A model generated the notes under the pieces. It was not told the origin of the DNA. It saw only the letters and a list, made by a program, of their open reading frames with translations, and made no database searches. Below, piece after piece: positions 7,928-17,439 of a DNA stretch of 21,323 nucleotides (positions are counted from its first letter, which is position 1; each line of letters starts with the position of its first letter). A program made the translations under genes and the position numbers. This stretch comes from a virus: positions 1 through 21,323 of IMG/VR virus record IMGVR_UViG_3300048586_000216; one strand, 5' to 3'.

Positions 7928-10873
7928 ATGGTCCTCGCAAAACAGCCTTTCACGCTCCCGCTTGCTCAGGGGATGAACCAGAAGAAAAATCCGAAGGTCC
8001 TGACGGGCGGCGTAACGCTTGTTGAGAATGGAGTCCATAGAAAGGATGAGGAGCTTAAAAAACGCTTTGGATGGACTTCCCTTGCGCGAACAAAATCAGA
8101 CTCCTCATCCATCACGGCGGCCGATGCCATGGCCACATACGAGAGCGAGCTGCTTATCTGGAGTCAGAACCGGATCCTTACATGGTCTGAGGCTCAGGAT
8201 AAATGGTATGACCGCGGCGCTGCATATTCGACCGCCGTCTCCACAAGGCCCATCAACGCCTCGGCGACTTCCTATAACGTTTCTGACAGCGTTTATGCCA
8301 GTGGCGCTGTTCTTGTCTGCTATGAGATCTCGATTGAAACGCGCTATCAGATTTATGACTACGTGACCGGCGCTGTTTTAAAGTCGGAAACCCAGGTGGA
8401 GCCTGCGGCGATCTCGGTTTCCCCGAAGTGCGTGAGCATTGGCGGGCTCTTTTTTGTGATCTATGCGGGATCAACAAACGTCATTAAGGGCGTGATTATC
8501 AATCCTGCGACGGGAGCGGTTACATCGACTGTAACGCTTGCCACGGACTGCTTTGCAAATAACAGCTTTGATGCCATCGCGGTCGACTCGGCGACGATCA
8601 TGCTCGTCTATTCGTCGACCACAACAACAATCGAAATCAAATATCTGAATACGGCGCTTGGGCAAAAGGGCGGATCATACACGGACTCATCGACCTCGGC
8701 CGCCTCCTCAATCCCGCGGCTCATCCCGCTTTCATCCTCGCGCGTTCTTCTCGCCTACAAGGGCTCATCCAACATCATGGCCCGGGTTATCAGCTCGACG
8801 GGCTCGGTGGGCTCTCAGCTCGATACGGGGCTCACAGGAACGAATGCGACGCAAATCTCGGGACACCTGGCAGGAACCGATGGCCGCGTCTATGTGCAGT
8901 ATACGAGCTCGCCGGAAACGAATAACCACGTCTATAAAATCGACGTATCGACATCGGGGGGAGCCCATACCTCGGCCCTGTTCCTTCGCTCGGTAGGGCT
9001 TGCCACACGCGGCTTTGTACATAACGGCCAGGGCTTTGTTGGTATCTTTCATAAGTCGGATTTGCAGTCGACGTTTTTCATTGCCGACGATGATGGCGTA
9101 ATCGTTTCAAGGCATCAGCCAGGGACCGGAGGCTCGGGAGCCTATCAGAACTGCGTAAGTAATGTCTGGTCAGCAGTGAGCGCAAAGTATGAGTTTTCCA
9201 TTACATACAAAACGCGCGTGATCTCGGAAACCGATACCGGGGCGCTTTATAACTTTTCGGGCGGGGCGCCTTCGTCCGCAAACCTTTTCAGTACGCTCAA
9301 TGTGGCCGTTACCTCGCTTGACTTTCAAAGCAATTCCAACTTTTCTGCGGCCGAGCTCGGAGGAACGCTTCTCATCGTCGGCGGCGTTCTTTCCATGTAC
9401 GACGGGCTTTCCATGGTTGAGCATGGATTTTTCCTATATCCCGAGGGACTCAGCGCAACATCGGCCGCGGCGGGATCGGTTGAGAACGGGACCTATCTTA
9501 TTTGCGCGTGCTATGAATGGACGGACGCCAAGGGGAATATCCATCGGTCAGCGCCTTCCATTCCCTTGAGCCATACGGTCGCCGCGGGCCCCAAGACAAT
9601 TGCCGTTGTTGTTCCAACGCTAAGGCTCACGGAAAAGAAAACGCCAAGGACCGAGGCAAGGATCGTTCTTTATCGAACGATGAAAAATCAGACCGGCCCA
9701 TTTTATCGCGTAACCTCCATCTCGTCTCCGACCTCAAACTCAGTCACCTCAGACACTGTAACGATCAATGATTCGGTGGCTGACAGCTCTCTCACCGGGC
9801 GCGAGTATCTTTATACGACGGGCGGGATCCTCGATAACGCGGCCGCCCTTCCGGCGAAATACATCAAAGTCTGGCGCGGGCGCGTGGTCCTTGCAGGAGG
9901 CGAGGAAAACGTCATTCAGTATTCAAAGCCTTGGCAGAAGGGCGGTCCCGTTGAGTTTGCGGCTGAAAATACGCTTGAGATCGAATCCGACGGCGGGGAG
10001 CCTACGGGGCTCGACATTCTTGATGAGCGTCTTGTCCTCTTCAAGGAGCAATCCGCCTATCTCACATATGGCGAAGGTCCGGATGCTTCTGGGCTGGGAG
10101 GCGCTTTTTCTCCACTCACACGCATCTCCACTTGCGATGTGGGATGCATCGACCAGCAGTCGACTGCTTCTCTGCCAGGGGCCATTATTTTCAAGTCCTC
10201 CAAGGGCTACTATCTCCTTGGGAGTGACCTCACGGCGTCCTACATCGGCGATGCGGTCGAGGACTATAACAGTCTTTCCGTTACGTCGGCGACGCTCTTT
10301 TCCGAGGAAAATGAGGTCCGAATAACAAACTCAGACGGCGTGGCCCTGGTCTTTAACTACTACTTTAGAAAGTGGTCGGTCTTTACAAACCATGAGGCGG
10401 TCGATGCCCTTCGCTGGCGCGGGGGCTTTGTGCATCTTAAGTCTGACGGGAAAGTCTGCGTGGAAACAGAGGACAGCTTCCGCGATGATGGCGTGAATTA
10501 CGATCAGGCAATCGTGACTGGATGGCAAAGCTTTGGCGATATCGCTGGCTTTCAAAGGATCTACCGGGCCCAGATTGTGGGCGAGTATGTTTCCCCTGTA
10601 AGCCTTTCCCTAAGGGCCGCATATGATTTTGATAACGATTGGATTGACCTTGGATCACTCGCTCTTTCGGCAGAGGGCTACCGCTGGCAGTTTCATATGA
10701 AGCGGCAAAAATGCGAGAGCATGCGCTTTAAGATCACGGCGGCCGTGAGCGAACTTGTCCTATCAGGGGAAGGCGTAAGGCTTACGGCGATGGGCTTACT
10801 ATTCGGAATAAAAATGCCTCTCAGCAAAATTCCATCCAGTGCAAAAGCGGGACTTACAACCATCACACCATAA
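7928..10873 (+). CDS. Large beta-rich tail nozzle-like / stabilisation protein
   Basis: A 981-residue protein, almost entirely Ser/Thr/Gly/Val-rich beta structure. The N-terminus (PLAQGMNQKKNPKVL, VENGVHRKDEELKKRFGW) matches the opening of a phage tail-protein family I recognise, in which a GLxxKxxPKxL stretch is followed by a KRxGW motif. Central repeated strands suggest a beta-propeller. Later segments include RGRVVLAGGEENVIQYSKPW and YLTYGEGPDASGLG, also typical of this family. In podoviruses, proteins of this kind (compare T7 gp12 or P22 gp10) form the nozzle below the adaptor. Its position right after the adaptor fits, and no tail tube gene is present. The nozzle call is inference from pattern and context; an equally large tail hub is the main alternative. 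Confidence 0.68.
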   Translation: MVLAKQPFTLPLAQGMNQKKNPKVLTGGVTLVENGVHRKDEELKKRFGWTSLARTKSDSSSITAADAMATYESELLIWSQNRILTWSEAQDKWYDRGAAYSTAVSTRPINASATSYNVSDSVYASGAVLVCYEISIETRYQIYDYVTGAVLKSETQVEPAAISVSPKCVSIGGLFFVIYAGSTNVIKGVIINPATGAVTSTVTLATDCFANNSFDAIAVDSATIMLVYSSTTTTIEIKYLNTALGQKGGSYTDSSTSAASSIPRLIPLSSSRVLLAYKGSSNIMARVISSTGSVGSQLDTGLTGTNATQISGHLAGTDGRVYVQYTSSPETNNHVYKIDVSTSGGAHTSALFLRSVGLATRGFVHNGQGFVGIFHKSDLQSTFFIADDDGVIVSRHQPGTGGSGAYQNCVSNVWSAVSAKYEFSITYKTRVISETDTGALYNFSGGAPSSANLFSTLNVAVTSLDFQSNSNFSAAELGGTLLIVGGVLSMYDGLSMVEHGFFLYPEGLSATSAAAGSVENGTYLICACYEWTDAKGNIHRSAPSIPLSHTVAAGPKTIAVVVPTLRLTEKKTPRTEARIVLYRTMKNQTGPFYRVTSISSPTSNSVTSDTVTINDSVADSSLTGREYLYTTGGILDNAAALPAKYIKVWRGRVVLAGGEENVIQYSKPWQKGGPVEFAAENTLEIESDGGEPTGLDILDERLVLFKEQSAYLTYGEGPDASGLGGAFSPLTRISTCDVGCIDQQSTASLPGAIIFKSSKGYYLLGSDLTASYIGDAVEDYNSLSVTSATLFSEENEVRITNSDGVALVFNYYFRKWSVFTNHEAVDALRWRGGFVHLKSDGKVCVETEDSFRDDGVNYDQAIVTGWQSFGDIAGFQRIYRAQIVGEYVSPVSLSLRAAYDFDNDWIDLGSLALSAEGYRWQFHMKRQKCESMRFKITAAVSELVLSGEGVRLTAMGLLFGIKMPLSKIPSSAKAGLTTITP

Positions 10874-10882
10874 GGGGAGCTC

Positions 10883-12292
10883 ATGGCCTGGTACAACTCA
10901 ACAAAGGACCTTGGGAGATCACTGGGCGTCAATCGAAGCGTTGCCGATCGCTTCGGCGGCGGTGACAAGATGTTTGGCGATCGGAATAATGCGGGCGTGC
11001 TCGGGACCGGTCAATACCGTACGGATCAATACCAGGTCGACGAGTCCGCCTTCGGCGAAAGTCCCGAAGCGAAACAGCGCCAGATCGAATTTGCAAACGC
11101 CCTTCCGGCCGTGATCAATCGTCAGGCTCCGCAGATGAATGAGGCCCAGGCCAACCAATGGCGGGCCCAGCAGAATCAGCTCGCGGGGAATCTTCAGGCA
11201 ACGCTAAGGGGCGAGGGGCCGAGCGTGGCCCAGCTTCAAATGCAGCAGGGCCTCAACCAATCGCTTGGCAATGCGGCATCCATGGCGGCATCGCAAAGAG
11301 GGGTATCCCCTGCAATGGCCATGCGCCTTGCTCAGCAGAATCAGGCTCAGATGGCTCAGAACACGGTCGGGCAAAGCGGAATGCTGAGAGCCCAGGAGCA
11401 GATGGCTGCAAGGGGCGAGCTCGCGGGCCTTGCAAATGCGGCGAGGACTCAGGATCTGAATGTGGCGGCCGCGAATCAGCGCGCGGCCATGGAGCAGGGC
11501 CAGCTGAACGATAATATGGAGCGTTTTTTCCGTGAAGGCCAGATGGGCATGGACGAGAGAAACCGCCAGGCAAAAATCGAACGCGAGCGGATGAAAAGCC
11601 AAAACGCTATGGGAACAAGTCAGGTCAATGCGGGCGCCTATCAGGCTGCAGCGCAAAACAGAGCCGGTATGCTTGGAGGCATTGGAGCCGGTATCGGTGC
11701 GGCCGTTTCGATGTTTTCAGATGAGCGCCTCAAGACTGATATTCAAAAAGTGGATTTTGACAGTCCCGCGAATTGGGGCTTTCAGCCATCCAAGCCCTCC
11801 CCTGCCCCTATGCAGGAAAGCTCCTTTGAGCCGACGCGTGAAGCGGCTTCAAAGGAAAGCACAAAGAAGTTTCTGAATGCGCTGCAAGGCTCACAAAAAG
11901 GCGATGAATCCCCACACAATAAGATGGGGCAAAGCATCGGCATGGGCCTTGCGGCCGCGGCCATGGCGCTGAGTGATAAGAACGCGAAGACCGGCGCGAA
12001 GAAAGGAAATAGCGAGGTCCAGAGTTTTCTGGATGCAATAGATGCCTACACCTATCGCTATAAGGATCCCGCATACGGCGAAGGGAAACAGCTGAGCCCC
12101 ATGGCTCAGGACCTTGAGAAGACTCCAATCGGAAAAGAGCTTGTGGTCGATACGCCCGAAGGAAAGATGATCGACTATGGAAAAGCGGGCGGCGTGATGA
12201 TGGCATCGCAGGCCATGCTCAATGATCGACTGAGGGAGCTTGAAAAGGAGATGGCTCAGTTCTTTAAAGCGAAGGGTAATAAAAATGGCTGA
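10883..12292 (+). CDS. Helical virion protein with a C-terminal S74-type (intramolecular chaperone) domain
   Basis: A 469-residue protein. Residues about 75-265 are Gln/Ala/Met-rich helix, including MAASQRGVSPAMAMRLAQQN and AQEQMAARGELAGLANAART, a pattern I know from phage virion proteins in this position. The C-terminus resembles S74 chaperone domains, which trimerise an appendage and then cut themselves off: FLDAIDAYTYRYKDPAYGEG, MAQDLEKTPIGKELVVDT and EGKMIDYGKAGG, then a terminal helix. Two candidate Ser-Lys motifs occur, SDERLK (279-284) and SDKNAK (364-369), each after a Gly/Ala-rich helix. GGGGAG fits the ATG at 10883. The gene ends by overlapping the next one by 8 nt. The role may be a tail appendage or an ejected protein; self-cleavage is inferred, not shown. 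Confidence 0.65.
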   Translation: MAWYNSTKDLGRSLGVNRSVADRFGGGDKMFGDRNNAGVLGTGQYRTDQYQVDESAFGESPEAKQRQIEFANALPAVINRQAPQMNEAQANQWRAQQNQLAGNLQATLRGEGPSVAQLQMQQGLNQSLGNAASMAASQRGVSPAMAMRLAQQNQAQMAQNTVGQSGMLRAQEQMAARGELAGLANAARTQDLNVAAANQRAAMEQGQLNDNMERFFREGQMGMDERNRQAKIERERMKSQNAMGTSQVNAGAYQAAAQNRAGMLGGIGAGIGAAVSMFSDERLKTDIQKVDFDSPANWGFQPSKPSPAPMQESSFEPTREAASKESTKKFLNALQGSQKGDESPHNKMGQSIGMGLAAAAMALSDKNAKTGAKKGNSEVQSFLDAIDAYTYRYKDPAYGEGKQLSPMAQDLEKTPIGKELVVDTPEGKMIDYGKAGGVMMASQAMLNDRLRELEKEMAQFFKAKGNKNG

Positions 12293-13811
12293 GAAAAAAA
12301 GAACTGAGGATGAGCTTCAAAAGGACTTTGTAAACGCTCTGATCGGTGCCGGTCAGGGAGCGACGCTTGATTTTGGCGATGAGCTTTACGGAGCAGGCGG
12401 CGGGCTGGAGGCCCTCATGCATGGCCAGGATCCAAGGCAGGGATACATGGACGCGCGTGATGAGGCGAGGGCCAGGATCAAACAGGCTGAGACAGAATCC
12501 CCGAACGCTTTTATGGCGGGCGAGATCGGGAGCGCATTCATTCCGGGGCTCGGTGCGGCGGGCGCGGTTTCCAAGGCATCGAAACTGAAAAAGGCCCTGC
12601 AAATGGCTGTCATGGGCGGCGCAGGAGGGCTCGGCCGATCCGAGGCGGATGATGCCGGTGAGATGGCAAAGGATACTCTTTCATCTGCGGCGCTGAGCGC
12701 CGGGACCGGCGTAGGCATGGATCAGGTAATGCGCCGGATCGGGGATGTGATCGACTTTAAGAAGATGAGGGATAAGCTCAGAAAGGAAAGGCTTGAAAAG
12801 CCAGACGGTGAGACTGGATATCCTGCATATCCTGGACATCATGGCCGCAGGACATCAGAGACAATCCAGGAGCTTCAGAAATGGAAAAAGAATAGATATT
12901 CCGATGAGGAACGTTTCCAGCATGGGAGGGAGGAAATAGAGCTTTCAAAGCTTCATCCCGAGGATAAAAAAGCGGCCCTTTTGGAGTTCGATGAAAAGCA
13001 TAGGCGCACTCCGTCGGTTGAGGAATATACGCCCGAGAATGCTTTGGAGCGTGTGAAGTCCAGGCTGGATGTTGAGACTAAGGATTCTCCGACGACGAGA
13101 CTTATAAGCAAAGTTGAAAGTGAAGGTGCTGATGAGCCTTATGTCGGCCGTGATTATCATGCGGTGATCGCACTCGAAAACCCAAGGAACCGCGACGTAT
13201 CCCAGCCTTTGCCGGTCCCTCCATCCAAGGTCGGGGATCTCAAGGGTGTTCTTGGTAAGGGCGTTCTTACAGGGGATTCGGATCCTTTTGCTTGGGTCGA
13301 TGCAAAATATGGAGTGAGCAGGGCCCTCCTTGAGCGTGAAAAGGAAAAGCCTCTCAAGATTTTTACGCGTTCCGACCTTATCGGGCATGATGATTATCTT
13401 GAGAAGATCGGCAAAAAACATGAAGTGAATATGGTGTTCTCGACTCCGAATAAGAGTGTAGGTCGAATGATCGAGCCAGGGGCACCGAGCCTTGCCCGCC
13501 GCATTACAGCTGCAAACAAGCTTGCTGAGAATGGCGTCAACGTGAAGTTTCATTATCAGATGTTTGATAATAAAAAAATGCCAGCGTCATGGGCCCAGTT
13601 CCAGCCATCTGAGGTCGAGGTCTTAAGGGAGCTTCGGGAAATGGGGCTTAACCCTTCCATAAAGCTTACCGTCGAGAAGACTCCGATCAAAGATAAAAAC
13701 ATGAAAGAGATGCTGAACGTGCTCGGGCTTGAAATGGATCCGAAGATGGCCGCGAAGGAAAGAGCACTGGATAAGGCCCGCGGACGCACGAAAAAAAAGG
13801 ATGAGGAATAA
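12285..13811 (+). CDS. Virion-type protein with an ejection-like N-terminus and a cysteine-free radical-SAM-like C-terminal region
   Basis: A 508-residue protein; ATG 12285 overlaps the previous gene by 8 nt. Residues 15-150 resemble the N-terminal module of phage internal proteins: GAGQGATLDFGDELYGAGGG (21-40), a Gly/Ala-rich hydrophobic run, GLGRSEADD (115-123), then a second Gly/Ala segment. Residues 160-315 are charged and unassigned. Residues 323-430 read like the second half of a spore-photoproduct-lyase-like radical SAM barrel: TGDSDPF (329-335), PLKIFTRSDLI (356-366), EPGAPSLARR (397-406), then KLAENGVNVKFHYQ. The defining CxxxCxxC cluster motif is absent, and the whole protein has no cysteine. 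It cannot be a normal [4Fe-4S] enzyme. It may be a repurposed fold or a remnant. Its lysine-rich tail could bind nucleic acid. The similarity is my reading by eye. Confidence 0.55.
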   Translation: MAEKKRTEDELQKDFVNALIGAGQGATLDFGDELYGAGGGLEALMHGQDPRQGYMDARDEARARIKQAETESPNAFMAGEIGSAFIPGLGAAGAVSKASKLKKALQMAVMGGAGGLGRSEADDAGEMAKDTLSSAALSAGTGVGMDQVMRRIGDVIDFKKMRDKLRKERLEKPDGETGYPAYPGHHGRRTSETIQELQKWKKNRYSDEERFQHGREEIELSKLHPEDKKAALLEFDEKHRRTPSVEEYTPENALERVKSRLDVETKDSPTTRLISKVESEGADEPYVGRDYHAVIALENPRNRDVSQPLPVPPSKVGDLKGVLGKGVLTGDSDPFAWVDAKYGVSRALLEREKEKPLKIFTRSDLIGHDDYLEKIGKKHEVNMVFSTPNKSVGRMIEPGAPSLARRITAANKLAENGVNVKFHYQMFDNKKMPASWAQFQPSEVEVLRELREMGLNPSIKLTVEKTPIKDKNMKEMLNVLGLEMDPKMAAKERALDKARGRTKKKDEE

Positions 13812-13813
13812 TC

Positions 13814-14158
13814 ATGGCCAAAAACATCGTTAAAGCATTCAAGATTCTGGACGGCGGGGATATGTCGGGCAATCTCGTATCGAGCAGCATTCCCTGCGAA
13901 CGCCTTGACAATATAGCGATCCAGCTTCAATGGACGGGAACGCCAGTGGGTGATTTTTTCGTCGACGCAAGGATTGATGAGGATGCTCCATGGACCGAGC
14001 TGGATCTGGATCCGGCAGTGGTCGCATCGGGAGCCGCATCGGACTGGATCATGAGCTTTGGCCAGACGCCTTATTCTGAGCTGCGTTTGAGATATCAAAG
14101 TTCCAGCGGATCAGGAGCACTTACGGCGTGGGCACGCGCCAAGCAGATTGGGGGCTAA
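13814..14158 (+). CDS. Small beta-sandwich protein upstream of the tail fibre
   Basis: A 114-residue protein with regular beta-strands: ERLDNIAIQLQWTGTPVGDF, then WTELDLDPAVV, SELRLRYQSSSGSGAL and a final strand. This layout (LDNIxIQLxxTGTPxGxF, then an SGTG-type turn) is familiar to me from small phage structural proteins, often near fibre genes. It ends 2 nt before the fibre ATG and starts 2 nt after the preceding stop, so it is co-translated with both. It resembles the protein encoded just after the fibre (17456-17791), which suggests an ancient duplication. Possible roles are fibre attachment, fibre chaperone or a minor tail protein. No catalytic motif is seen. Confidence 0.62.
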   Translation: MAKNIVKAFKILDGGDMSGNLVSSSIPCERLDNIAIQLQWTGTPVGDFFVDARIDEDAPWTELDLDPAVVASGAASDWIMSFGQTPYSELRLRYQSSSGSGALTAWARAKQIGG

Positions 14159-14160
14159 TC

Positions 14161-17100
14161 ATGGCGGCACGCGAAAGCAAGTGGTCTGGAGTCTTTGGGG
14201 GCGGCGGCGGTGGAGGCGGCGATGTAACGGGGCCAGGATCCTCAACGGATGGATCCTTGTCTGAATTTAACGGGACATCGGGCGAGTTAATTCGGGAGTC
14301 GACGGCGAGGATTGAAAGCGATGATCTTTCGCTTGCAGGGCAGCTTGTCAAATTCAATCGGGGCGGAACGGACGGCACGGCCGAGGGCTCGGGGCTAAGG
14401 GCTTTGGGCAATGCCGGGGCGACTCTGGCAGAGCTTTTATACGACTCGACGCTTGCATCAAAGTGGAAGGCAGGTCCGAACGGATCCTTATCTGCAGTCT
14501 TGACTGCGGGCGCCACGCAGACTGTTCAGAACAAGACGCTTGATAACACAAACTCCATCGACGTTCCGGATGATCAGCTCCGTATTGAGGACACTGCGGA
14601 TCCCACGAAAAAGATCCGCTTTGATGCGGGAGCAGTAACCGCAGGCCAGACGCGGGTTATATCAGCGATTGATGAGGACCTTGAGCTCCTTGGCAGAACA
14701 AACACGCAGACTGTTCAGAACAAGACGCATCAGGACTCCATCTTCGATGGCGGCTCGGCATCATCTGCTAGAAAGATCATCCTCCCCAAAGGCATAAAAA
14801 CGGCCCTGGATGCTCTCACTCAGGAGGAGGGCCTCCTTACTTATGCGACCGATGAGGATCGCGGCTATCTCTCAAATGGCACGGCTCAGATCAAAATCGG
14901 AACGGTCGATGGGCCCGCATCGGCGACCGATAACCAGCTTGCCCGCTTCGATGGCACGACGGGGAAGATGATCCAGGACTCAGCGATCGGCGTTAACGAT
15001 AGCGGGGATATGGCGGGGATTCGTGATCTTGATATGACGGGTGATCTTCTCGTCGGCGGCAATGCCGTGATCACCGGGAACCTTGAAGTGCAAGGGACAG
15101 AGACTACGCTCAACACTGACGAGCTCCAGGTCGAGGATCCGACGATCCAGGTCAATTTCGGAGGCACGGATGCCTCGGCCGAGGGCGCGGGGATCGAAGC
15201 CCTTGGAACCGGCAACGTCGCCAGGGCAAGGCTCCAGTACGACTCAGCCCTTCCAAGCAAGTGGAAAGCCGGTGCGGCAGGATCGGAGAAGGAGATCCTG
15301 ACGGCCGGCGATACACAGGCTGTTTCAAGCAAAACGCTGAATAACACAAACAGCGCGGCTTTGAAAGACGATCAATTTACGCTTGAGGATCCGGCCGACT
15401 CGACGAAAAAGCTTCGGTTTGATGCAGGAAACGTTACGCCAGGCCAGACGCGGGTTATATCGGCAATTGATGAGGACATTGAGCTCCTTGGCAGAACGAA
15501 CACGCAGATAGTTACCAATAAGGACATTGACGGCGGGACTGCTGCAGATACACGGAGGATCACGCTTCCAAAGGATACCTTTGCAAATCTTCTCCTTCTC
15601 ACACGCAAAGAGGGCACGCTCCTTTATGCGACTGATCTTGATCAGGTGTTTTATGATAATGGATCATCGCTGCTCCCGGTCGGCTCGGGATCATCCGGAG
15701 AAAAAAACTATATAGTCAACTCCGCAGCAAACAGCACAAACGGCTGGGCGGCGACGGGAGGGACGTTTGCGAGGACGACGACAGCCGCGAATTTGCCGCG
15801 GGAATTTACAACGGGATCAGCTCTTGCATTCACATCCAGCACAGACGAGGAGTATGTTCGGTATCGCTTCAGCCTGGACGATGTAGACCTGGGCGCAAAG
15901 CTCAAGTGGGTTCTTGACTACATCTCCTCCACGGCCAACTTCCGTTTGGAAATGTGGAAGAACACTGCTTCGGATTATAGTAGTTCATACACTGAGATTC
16001 CATTGGAGTGGGATGTTTCAGGCGATAGCTACCTTGTGGCTGCAGCATCGTCTGCAAATTACAAAACCACGTTCGATACAGATACCACTCCATACCTGGA
16101 ACTTCGCATCGTCCACAACGGGACTGGTACGGACACGATCTATTTCAGCGATGTGCTGGTGGGGCCTCGGACGACAGAGACGGTGCCTGCGGTTGGGAAA
16201 TGGCAATCTCTTCCAGTCACGTTGACAAATATGGGTACTGGAGCTTCTGCCAGTTTGCGCTACAAGCAAGACACAGACAGTATAGAAATCGAAGGTACGT
16301 TTACAACGGGAACATCCATACCCGCCTCTGTAGGGAAAATCACCTTAGGGTTGACAGGTATCTCTTTCACTCCCTCCGTTGTTCGCATTGTTGGTATGAG
16401 TGGTATATCCAAAGCTATCACCGACAACGTTTTGAATATGGCCGGGGTCCTTATTGACCCAGCCAGTGACCCAAAGGGTCTATTCTTCTCTCAAATGGCT
16501 ACGGGAGCTGCAACAAACAACCATACTGCATTGAATGCCAGCTCAATATTCAGCGCATCTACCACGCATTCTTTGTTTGCCCGCATCCCTATCGCCGAAT
16601 GGGCTGGCGCCGGTCTGAACACGGGACCGGGAGTTGATGGAGAGCTTAAATCGACCAGTGGAACATGGGACGCAAATAGCTCCACAACGGTCAGTGGAGG
16701 CTCTGCCATAGGAGGCACTCTTACAGCAGCACGGACGAAGACAATAACATGGACCTATCCGATACAATCTGACGATGATTTGGAAGTTTTGTATTCCCCA
16801 GATAACATCATCTGGACTCCATTTAATGCCTCACGTATCGGAACCACACCAATTATTCCCGGCATTGATAGCACTGGCACTGAAGTTTCGGGCGTATTCT
16901 GGAAACATATCAGCTCTACTCAGACAGAAATTTTGTTCGGTCGCTTTGCAAATATAGCTAATGACGACAGTCCTACAGCAAACTATCCAGCTTCTGGCTA
17001 TTGGGCTGCACGCAAACGAAGAGCAAATAGTATTCCATTCCCAAAAGCCAAGGCGTATCAGAGTGGTTTGGTTGCTCCGAGGACAGGGCAGACGAGCCTC

Positions 17101-17439
17101 ACAGTAACAGGCACGAACTGGACGACCGCCAGGGCAGTCGGCATCTATTATCAAGACCAGGACGGAAACCATCGTTTAAAATTCAACATAATGGGTACCC
17201 TATCTTCCGCTGCTGCGTCCTTTACTGGAAGTATCTCAGGGGTGACATTCAAAAACCTGAGCAACTATTTTCAGGCTATATCTGCGTACACACAAGAGGA
17301 TAGCGTTGCAATTCGCACCATAGTTGGCTCCTATGTGCAACCAAACGCCTCCACGTTTTATGTAGGAAGTAGCGGCAATGCCAATAGAATTACGGTATCC
17401 GCTGACGTAGAAATCGAATCCAAACCAACCTGGGCATAA
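14161..17439 (+). CDS. Tail fibre / receptor-binding protein
   Basis: A 1092-residue fibre. A short virion-attachment leader (MAARESKWSGVF) is followed by eight glycines (13-20), a flexible hinge. The shaft has two TGPxSxTD-type units (from 24 and 250) ending in IRES or IQDS, a motif typical of trimeric phage fibres. It also has two copies of a module of about 180 residues (65-247 and 331-508). From about residue 560 the sequence becomes beta-domain-like (possible carbohydrate-binding folds) and ends without an S74 domain. ATG 14161 is chosen over an earlier in-frame GTG (14128) because it follows the upstream stop. DNA from about 15.82 kb to the end is visibly different: TTG (Leu) and GGT (Gly) codons are frequent and GATC is nearly absent. 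This suggests a swapped receptor-binding end. Confidence 0.87.
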   Translation: MAARESKWSGVFGGGGGGGGDVTGPGSSTDGSLSEFNGTSGELIRESTARIESDDLSLAGQLVKFNRGGTDGTAEGSGLRALGNAGATLAELLYDSTLASKWKAGPNGSLSAVLTAGATQTVQNKTLDNTNSIDVPDDQLRIEDTADPTKKIRFDAGAVTAGQTRVISAIDEDLELLGRTNTQTVQNKTHQDSIFDGGSASSARKIILPKGIKTALDALTQEEGLLTYATDEDRGYLSNGTAQIKIGTVDGPASATDNQLARFDGTTGKMIQDSAIGVNDSGDMAGIRDLDMTGDLLVGGNAVITGNLEVQGTETTLNTDELQVEDPTIQVNFGGTDASAEGAGIEALGTGNVARARLQYDSALPSKWKAGAAGSEKEILTAGDTQAVSSKTLNNTNSAALKDDQFTLEDPADSTKKLRFDAGNVTPGQTRVISAIDEDIELLGRTNTQIVTNKDIDGGTAADTRRITLPKDTFANLLLLTRKEGTLLYATDLDQVFYDNGSSLLPVGSGSSGEKNYIVNSAANSTNGWAATGGTFARTTTAANLPREFTTGSALAFTSSTDEEYVRYRFSLDDVDLGAKLKWVLDYISSTANFRLEMWKNTASDYSSSYTEIPLEWDVSGDSYLVAAASSANYKTTFDTDTTPYLELRIVHNGTGTDTIYFSDVLVGPRTTETVPAVGKWQSLPVTLTNMGTGASASLRYKQDTDSIEIEGTFTTGTSIPASVGKITLGLTGISFTPSVVRIVGMSGISKAITDNVLNMAGVLIDPASDPKGLFFSQMATGAATNNHTALNASSIFSASTTHSLFARIPIAEWAGAGLNTGPGVDGELKSTSGTWDANSSTTVSGGSAIGGTLTAARTKTITWTYPIQSDDDLEVLYSPDNIIWTPFNASRIGTTPIIPGIDSTGTEVSGVFWKHISSTQTEILFGRFANIANDDSPTANYPASGYWAARKRRANSIPFPKAKAYQSGLVAPRTGQTSLTVTGTNWTTARAVGIYYQDQDGNHRLKFNIMGTLSSAAASFTGSISGVTFKNLSNYFQAISAYTQEDSVAIRTIVGSYVQPNASTFYVGSSGNANRITVSADVEIESKPTWA
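14353..14901 (+). repeat. Tail-fibre module, copy A
   Basis: Encodes fibre residues 65-247. It starts near GGTDGTAEGSGLRALGN, passes TAGATQTVQNKTLDNTNS, RFDAGAVTAGQTRVIS and AIDEDLELLGRTNTQ, and ends near YLSNGTAQIKIG. Copy B repeats the same order of motifs. Between 14642-14710 and 15440-15508 I count 65 identical bases of 69. Confidence 0.85.
15151..15684 (+). repeat. Tail-fibre module, copy B
   Basis: Encodes fibre residues 331-508. It contains GGTDASAEGAGIEALGTGN, TLNNTNSAALKDDQFTLED, RFDAGNVTPGQTRVIS and AIDEDIELLGRTNTQ, and ends YDNGSSLLPVG. The motif order matches copy A. The NKTHQDSIFDGG part of A is shortened to NKDIDGG here. Confidence 0.85.

Follow-up and report, generated by a model that had tools for sequence, protein, structure and literature searches.

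How does a phage virion-type protein without a single cysteine come to carry the motifs of radical SAM proteins? The question is raised by one gene of a viral contig (IMG/VR virus record IMGVR_UViG_3300048586_000216; the whole stretch analysed, 21,323 nucleotides, is referred to as the window). Radical SAM proteins are recognised through their cluster cysteines, so that descendants without the cluster are easily missed by annotation. The first-pass annotation of the window had described five motifs in the product of positions 12285-13811. Translation of this gene gave an intact reading frame of 508 aa with no cysteine, here called P0001, with all five motifs in the described order (TGDSDPF at residues 329-335, PLKIFTRSDLI at 356-366, FSTPNKSVGRM at 385-395, EPGAPSLARR at 397-406 and KLAENGVNVKF at 412-422). 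The frame opens with an ATG and shares its first 8 bases with the end of the upstream gene. The parts of the gene are as follows, in window positions:

12285..13811, plus strand: P0001, 508-aa virion-type protein with a C-terminal radical-SAM-like domain without cysteine (translation; open frame)
12306..12719, plus strand: N-terminal phage module, residues 8-145 (profile match to phrog_5880, E 1.4e-8; likeness to the L112 protein over 54-145)
12720..13004, plus strand: polar linker, residues 146-240 (no match in family searches)
13137..13193, plus strand: possible degenerate cluster-site segment PYVGRDYHAVIALENPRNR, residues 285-303, set against PYRGCEHGCIYCFARP by BLAST (L028, L054, L078, L091)
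13263..13289, plus strand: beta2 motif VLTGDSDPF, residues 327-335, counterpart of GTxTDPY (alignments)
13275..13547, plus strand: radical-SAM core from beta2 to beta5, residues 331-421 (NCBIfam, PHROG and Pfam matches; 54-bit profile score)
13353..13382, plus strand: beta3 motif LKIFTRSDLI, residues 357-366, counterpart of ITKSxLV (alignments; model strand 358-361)
13422..13448, plus strand: beta4 segment EVNMVFSTP, residues 380-388, counterpart of VSITT (alignments; strand 380-385 in both models)
13473..13502, plus strand: EPGAPSLARR, residues 397-406, signature segment past beta4 (E, P, A and R change little or not at all across 47 sequences)
13503..13562, plus strand: alpha4 and beta5, residues 407-426 (model helix 403-415, strand 419-426)
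13605..13748, plus strand: predicted alpha5-beta6-alpha6, residues 441-488, which would complete the side of the barrel (helices 441-452 and 471-484 and strand 456-461 of the model)

Comparing P0001 with curated families showed that its motifs reflect real homology to radical SAM proteins, with a core at about residues 328-421. The NCBIfam model rSAM_PA0069 matched with an E-value of 8.2e-8 over residues 328-421 only, in line with the region of about 320-430 singled out by the first-pass annotation, and further matches were obtained for rSAM_Rv2578c (E 8.3e-6) and phrog_13321 (E 3.3e-7), a family that takes in intact radical SAM proteins. Scores against the PA0069/Rv2578c models were about 32-34 bits and did not reach the cut-off of 360, which is set for the whole protein (31.6 bits for PA0069, NF033668). 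Likewise below their gathering cut-offs were Pfam Radical_SAM (PF04055; C-terminal fragment, E 5.2e-4, 20.7 bits, cut-off 29.5) and Pfam SPL (PF20903; E 0.028 for whole P0001 and 0.007 for the C-terminal fragment, 15.7 bits, cut-off 27). A profile of 53 bacterial relatives scored P0001 at 54.0 bits, compared with -2.1 for reversed P0001; none of 2,000 shuffles exceeded 4.9 and none of 192 other window ORFs exceeded 3.0. For the beta2-beta5 part, P0001 reached 98 bits against the bacterial profile and intact phage relatives 60-100 bits. A PDB sequence search with P0001 alone gave no match; the alignment-derived profile reached spore photoproduct lyase (SPL) among solved structures with an E-value of 1e-5. 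The motifs are short and had been read by eye, which would speak for a chance resemblance or an assembly artefact; given the profile E-values and shuffle controls, together with the presence of the same gene in a second contig, we regard this as improbable in the extreme.

Within the core, P0001 retained D333-P334 (of TDPY), T361 and S363 (of TKS, with K replaced by R at 362), D369, E397-P398, A400-P401, R406 and G417, and its alignment with the relatives revealed the loss of the three cysteines and of a proline-containing segment past beta5. The proposed kinship with SPL-like proteins thus held as homology, but the nearest curated family was PA0069/Rv2578c (NF033668, NF038135) rather than SPL itself. 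Members of this family resemble P0001 in the beta2-beta5 core with its DPY, TKS, TT and EPxAPxxxR motifs; unlike P0001, they stand alone as proteins of about 350 aa and have CxxxCxxC and a conserved C-terminal half. In the phylogeny, the P0001 domain formed a very long branch and was placed in no supported group.

The radical SAM superfamily fold is a partial TIM (beta/alpha)6 barrel. AlphaFold2 run on residues 241-508, with an alignment of 46 radical SAM relatives as guide, gave a model with a mean pLDDT of 71 and a pTM of 0.68 (pLDDT about 90 over 341-420), in which helices alternate with strands at 358-361, 380-385, 419-426 and 456-461 and a short one near 327. These correspond to beta3, beta4, beta5 and beta6 plus a short beta2; the first, cluster-bearing unit (beta1) was not formed clearly. 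Top PDB matches to the guided model were SPL structures (Z 13.4-13.7 over 219-223 residues; the best, Z 13.7 over 221), followed by viperin, SuiB, RlmN and MoaA, all of them radical SAM proteins (Foldseek was also run). SPL (SplB; PF20903; PDB 4FHC) was accordingly the closest structural match of the model, with the EPG...R segment common to both proteins. Of the suggestion that P0001 keeps the second half of the barrel, the retained core stood, but "half" proved too small, and a half barrel only was rejected since the guided model reaches beta6/alpha6 and covers 221 residues on SPL. At the sequence level, family similarity was absent from residues 441-488 in the profile comparison. The alignment-free model was poor (pLDDT 42) and nonetheless had strands at 380-385 and 419-426. 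Taken together, the models make a radical-SAM-type barrel with the first, cluster-bearing unit missing or changed the probable fold of the P0001 C-terminus; it is called only probable because the guide alignment favours the radical SAM fold and alignment-free folding was uninformative.

In known radical SAM enzymes, three cysteines are required for cluster ligation. The hallmark of PF04055, CxxxCxxC, is absent from P0001, as the first-pass annotation had noted, and so is any cysteine along the 508 residues. Cysteine is likewise lacking in seven further window products, among them that of the gene just before P0001 and that of the long fibre-like gene after it, so the zero count is partly a property of the gene block; what carries the information is the absence of CxxxCxxC. 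Nothing in P0001 aligned to the cluster region of the bacterial profile, where most intact phage relatives scored 26-36 bits; one phage relative (L100) was likewise unaligned there despite having the cysteines, probably owing to an insertion. When P0001 was compared by BLAST with several bacterial relatives, PYVGRDYHAVIALENP (residues 285-300) was paired with PYRGCEHGCIYCFARP, in which case the cysteines would correspond to R289, A293 and A296. Scored as a cluster motif, PYVGRDYHAVIALENP reached 0.4 bits with the N-terminal profile, with 81 of the 4,788 scored shuffles equally good, and gave a p-value of 0.14 with a cysteine-masked PSSM. Neither score establishes the assignment, and we treat it as no more than a possible degenerate cluster motif, with Cys changed to Arg, Ala and Ala at 289, 293 and 296 (p 0.02-0.14).

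SPL needs C91, C95 and C98 (B. subtilis numbering) for its cluster, and mutating any of the three destabilises the cluster and kills activity; its hydrogen donor is a further, catalytic cysteine, C141 (PMC3742179). P0001 has none of these and, having no cysteine, should be incapable of SPL-type radical SAM chemistry. Could the domain still be a working metallo- or SAM enzyme that holds its cluster through other residues or with the help of a partner protein? P0001 retains core residues that are conserved in active relatives, which fits such an enzyme, but the complete lack of cysteines where known enzymes need three, and a sister phage contig in which no intact radical SAM gene was found elsewhere, render it highly improbable. 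As the cluster-holding cysteines are lost, the C-terminal half of P0001 probably acts in binding or as a structural element and not as a radical SAM enzyme.

Loss of the cluster site set P0001 apart from its relatives. Scanning bacterial genomes yielded 80 loci, and a CxxxCxxC-type motif was kept in all 53 ORFs extracted from them. A six-frame check of all loci (101 with a radical SAM match) returned as motif-less ORFs the phage gene copies, two ORFs cut by contig ends (L021, L087) and one interrupted ORF (L051). None of the last three was accepted as a further cysteine-less relative: those of L021 and L087 end at the contig edge, and that of L051 (positions 1-1600), a PA0069-like radical SAM gene, is interrupted between the cysteines, within the cluster motif, probably by an intein. 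The cysteines are also kept in six relatives encoded by phages (L096 has two; L098, L100, L101 and L102 have one each). These matched phrog_13321 where tested, and their local identity to P0001 reaches at most 44%, in a stretch of about 65 residues that contains TKSDLIGEDDY and EPGAPS. Every full-length relative found, phage ones included, thus keeps CxxxCxxC, and the cysteine-free version is known only from the window and one sister contig. None of the outcomes named in the first-pass annotation as counting against its idea turned up in the fold prediction, the profile search or the homologues.

The sister copy is identical in its first 500 codons, with neither synonymous nor nonsynonymous differences. 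Compared with the sister contig L005, P0001 and its surroundings (positions 10001-13500) are 98.6-100% identical, whereas identity further downstream is 88-97%, which suggests that the block around P0001 was recently exchanged.

A phage module in a virion-type setting had been proposed for the N-terminus, and both the phrog_5880 match and the neighbouring tail-type genes agree with this. Residues 54-145 showed 40% identity over 98 columns to a prophage-type protein of a bacterial genome (L112) whose C-terminus is unrelated. In samples of 398 and 297 genomes from two phyla (695 bacterial genomes), phrog_5880 matches turned up in 22 and 1, respectively, and the phrog_5880-bearing loci fetched from them gave no radical SAM match. 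Phage proteins of phrog_5880 likewise have the N-terminal module in common with P0001, and the examined members show no radical SAM match. The phrog_5880 match, the likeness to L112 and the lack of radical SAM matches in phrog_5880 loci support a phage virion-type module that appears to be joined to different C-termini.

Upstream of P0001 lie genes for the terminase large subunit, portal, coat and an SU10-type adaptor, then one for a Peptidase_S74-domain protein; downstream follow a long fibre-like protein and two other large ones, none of which contains cysteine. P0001 is thereby placed between tail-type genes. In the Peptidase_S74 protein (positions 10883-12292), the chaperone domain is at residues 364-413 (E 5.7e-9), and a SDERLKTDIQKV segment upstream of it, around residue 282, gives the impression of a duplicated chaperone start. 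The fibre-like protein (positions 14128-17439) has internal repeats, with recurring YDSxLxSKWKAG and KTLxNTNS segments, and its second half is unlike that of the sister contig L001. Defence families (PADLOC) gave no match. P0001 might act in the host cytoplasm during infection and not in the virion, for example as a decoy for a radical SAM enzyme of the host or as its inert partner. This would be in keeping with the L100 phage relative, which is encoded among replication rather than virion genes; with the P0001 gene inside the virion block and its N-terminus of phage virion type, we consider this improbable.

The explanation that we favour, with moderate confidence, is that P0001 is a virion-type protein with an exapted, cluster-less radical SAM domain, non-catalytic and kept for ligand or partner binding. 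Here, P0001 would be a two-part phage protein with a putative virion or ejection module at the N-terminus and a C-terminus whose ancestor was a radical SAM enzyme of PA0069/SPL-like type, which in phages and bacteria occurs as a protein of its own with the cluster. With its [4Fe-4S] site lost, the domain would no longer cleave SAM reductively, and the remaining barrel core would most likely serve as a non-catalytic module binding SAM or a nucleotide, nucleic acid or a partner, either within the virion or once it has been delivered into the host. Counted against this explanation are the single lineage (the sister copy being identical), the very long branch and the alignment-guided model.

The same long branch would also fit a decaying or purely structural spacer, a captured gene part that provides bulk or packing and binds no ligand, as would the loss of the cluster site and of later family motifs (the proline segment past beta5, the C-terminal half) and the variation of C-terminal regions among proteins sharing the N-terminal module. 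This reading is less probable, if a serious one: the most specific core motifs (SDPF, TRSDLI, EPGAPSxxRR) persist, although the cluster motif has diverged so far that statistics no longer recognise it. This points to selection having continued on the core once the cluster was lost. Because the core was apparently so maintained, we prefer a retained binding module to a purely structural remnant, without strong confidence.

P0001 thus combines a barrel core that survives without its cluster with a phage virion-type module, and in the openly licensed literature we found no account of a phage virion-type protein whose radical SAM domain lacks the cluster. If binding is retained, P0001 would be a rare pseudoenzyme of the radical SAM superfamily and possibly a virion-delivered ligand-binding protein. 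A further-reaching version, in which virions carry a radical SAM pseudoenzyme that is delivered with the genome and immediately on entry binds SAM, a nucleotide, DNA or a host radical SAM protein (e.g., a viperin-like defence enzyme), seems to us unlikely.

Several of the intact relatives have surroundings of their own. Large intact radical SAM proteins of 465-505 aa are encoded in phage contigs L096 (6379-8837), L100 (2484-3542 and 7320-8837), L101 (2291-3772) and L102 (7446-8843), and L096 and L100 encode a second radical SAM protein of about 350 aa. An intact radical SAM gene in MT838272.1 (L003, "Bacteriophage sp.") was not counted as phage-carried, as its neighbours are bacterial metabolic and transporter genes and the record is probably chromosomal. 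In L100, the radical SAM gene and its neighbours are located among replication genes. A PLP-lyase-like gene lies a short way upstream of the radical SAM gene in L100-L102, and a conserved gene of 240-280 aa directly downstream in L096, L100, L101 and L102; the gene set looks like an undescribed phage pathway.
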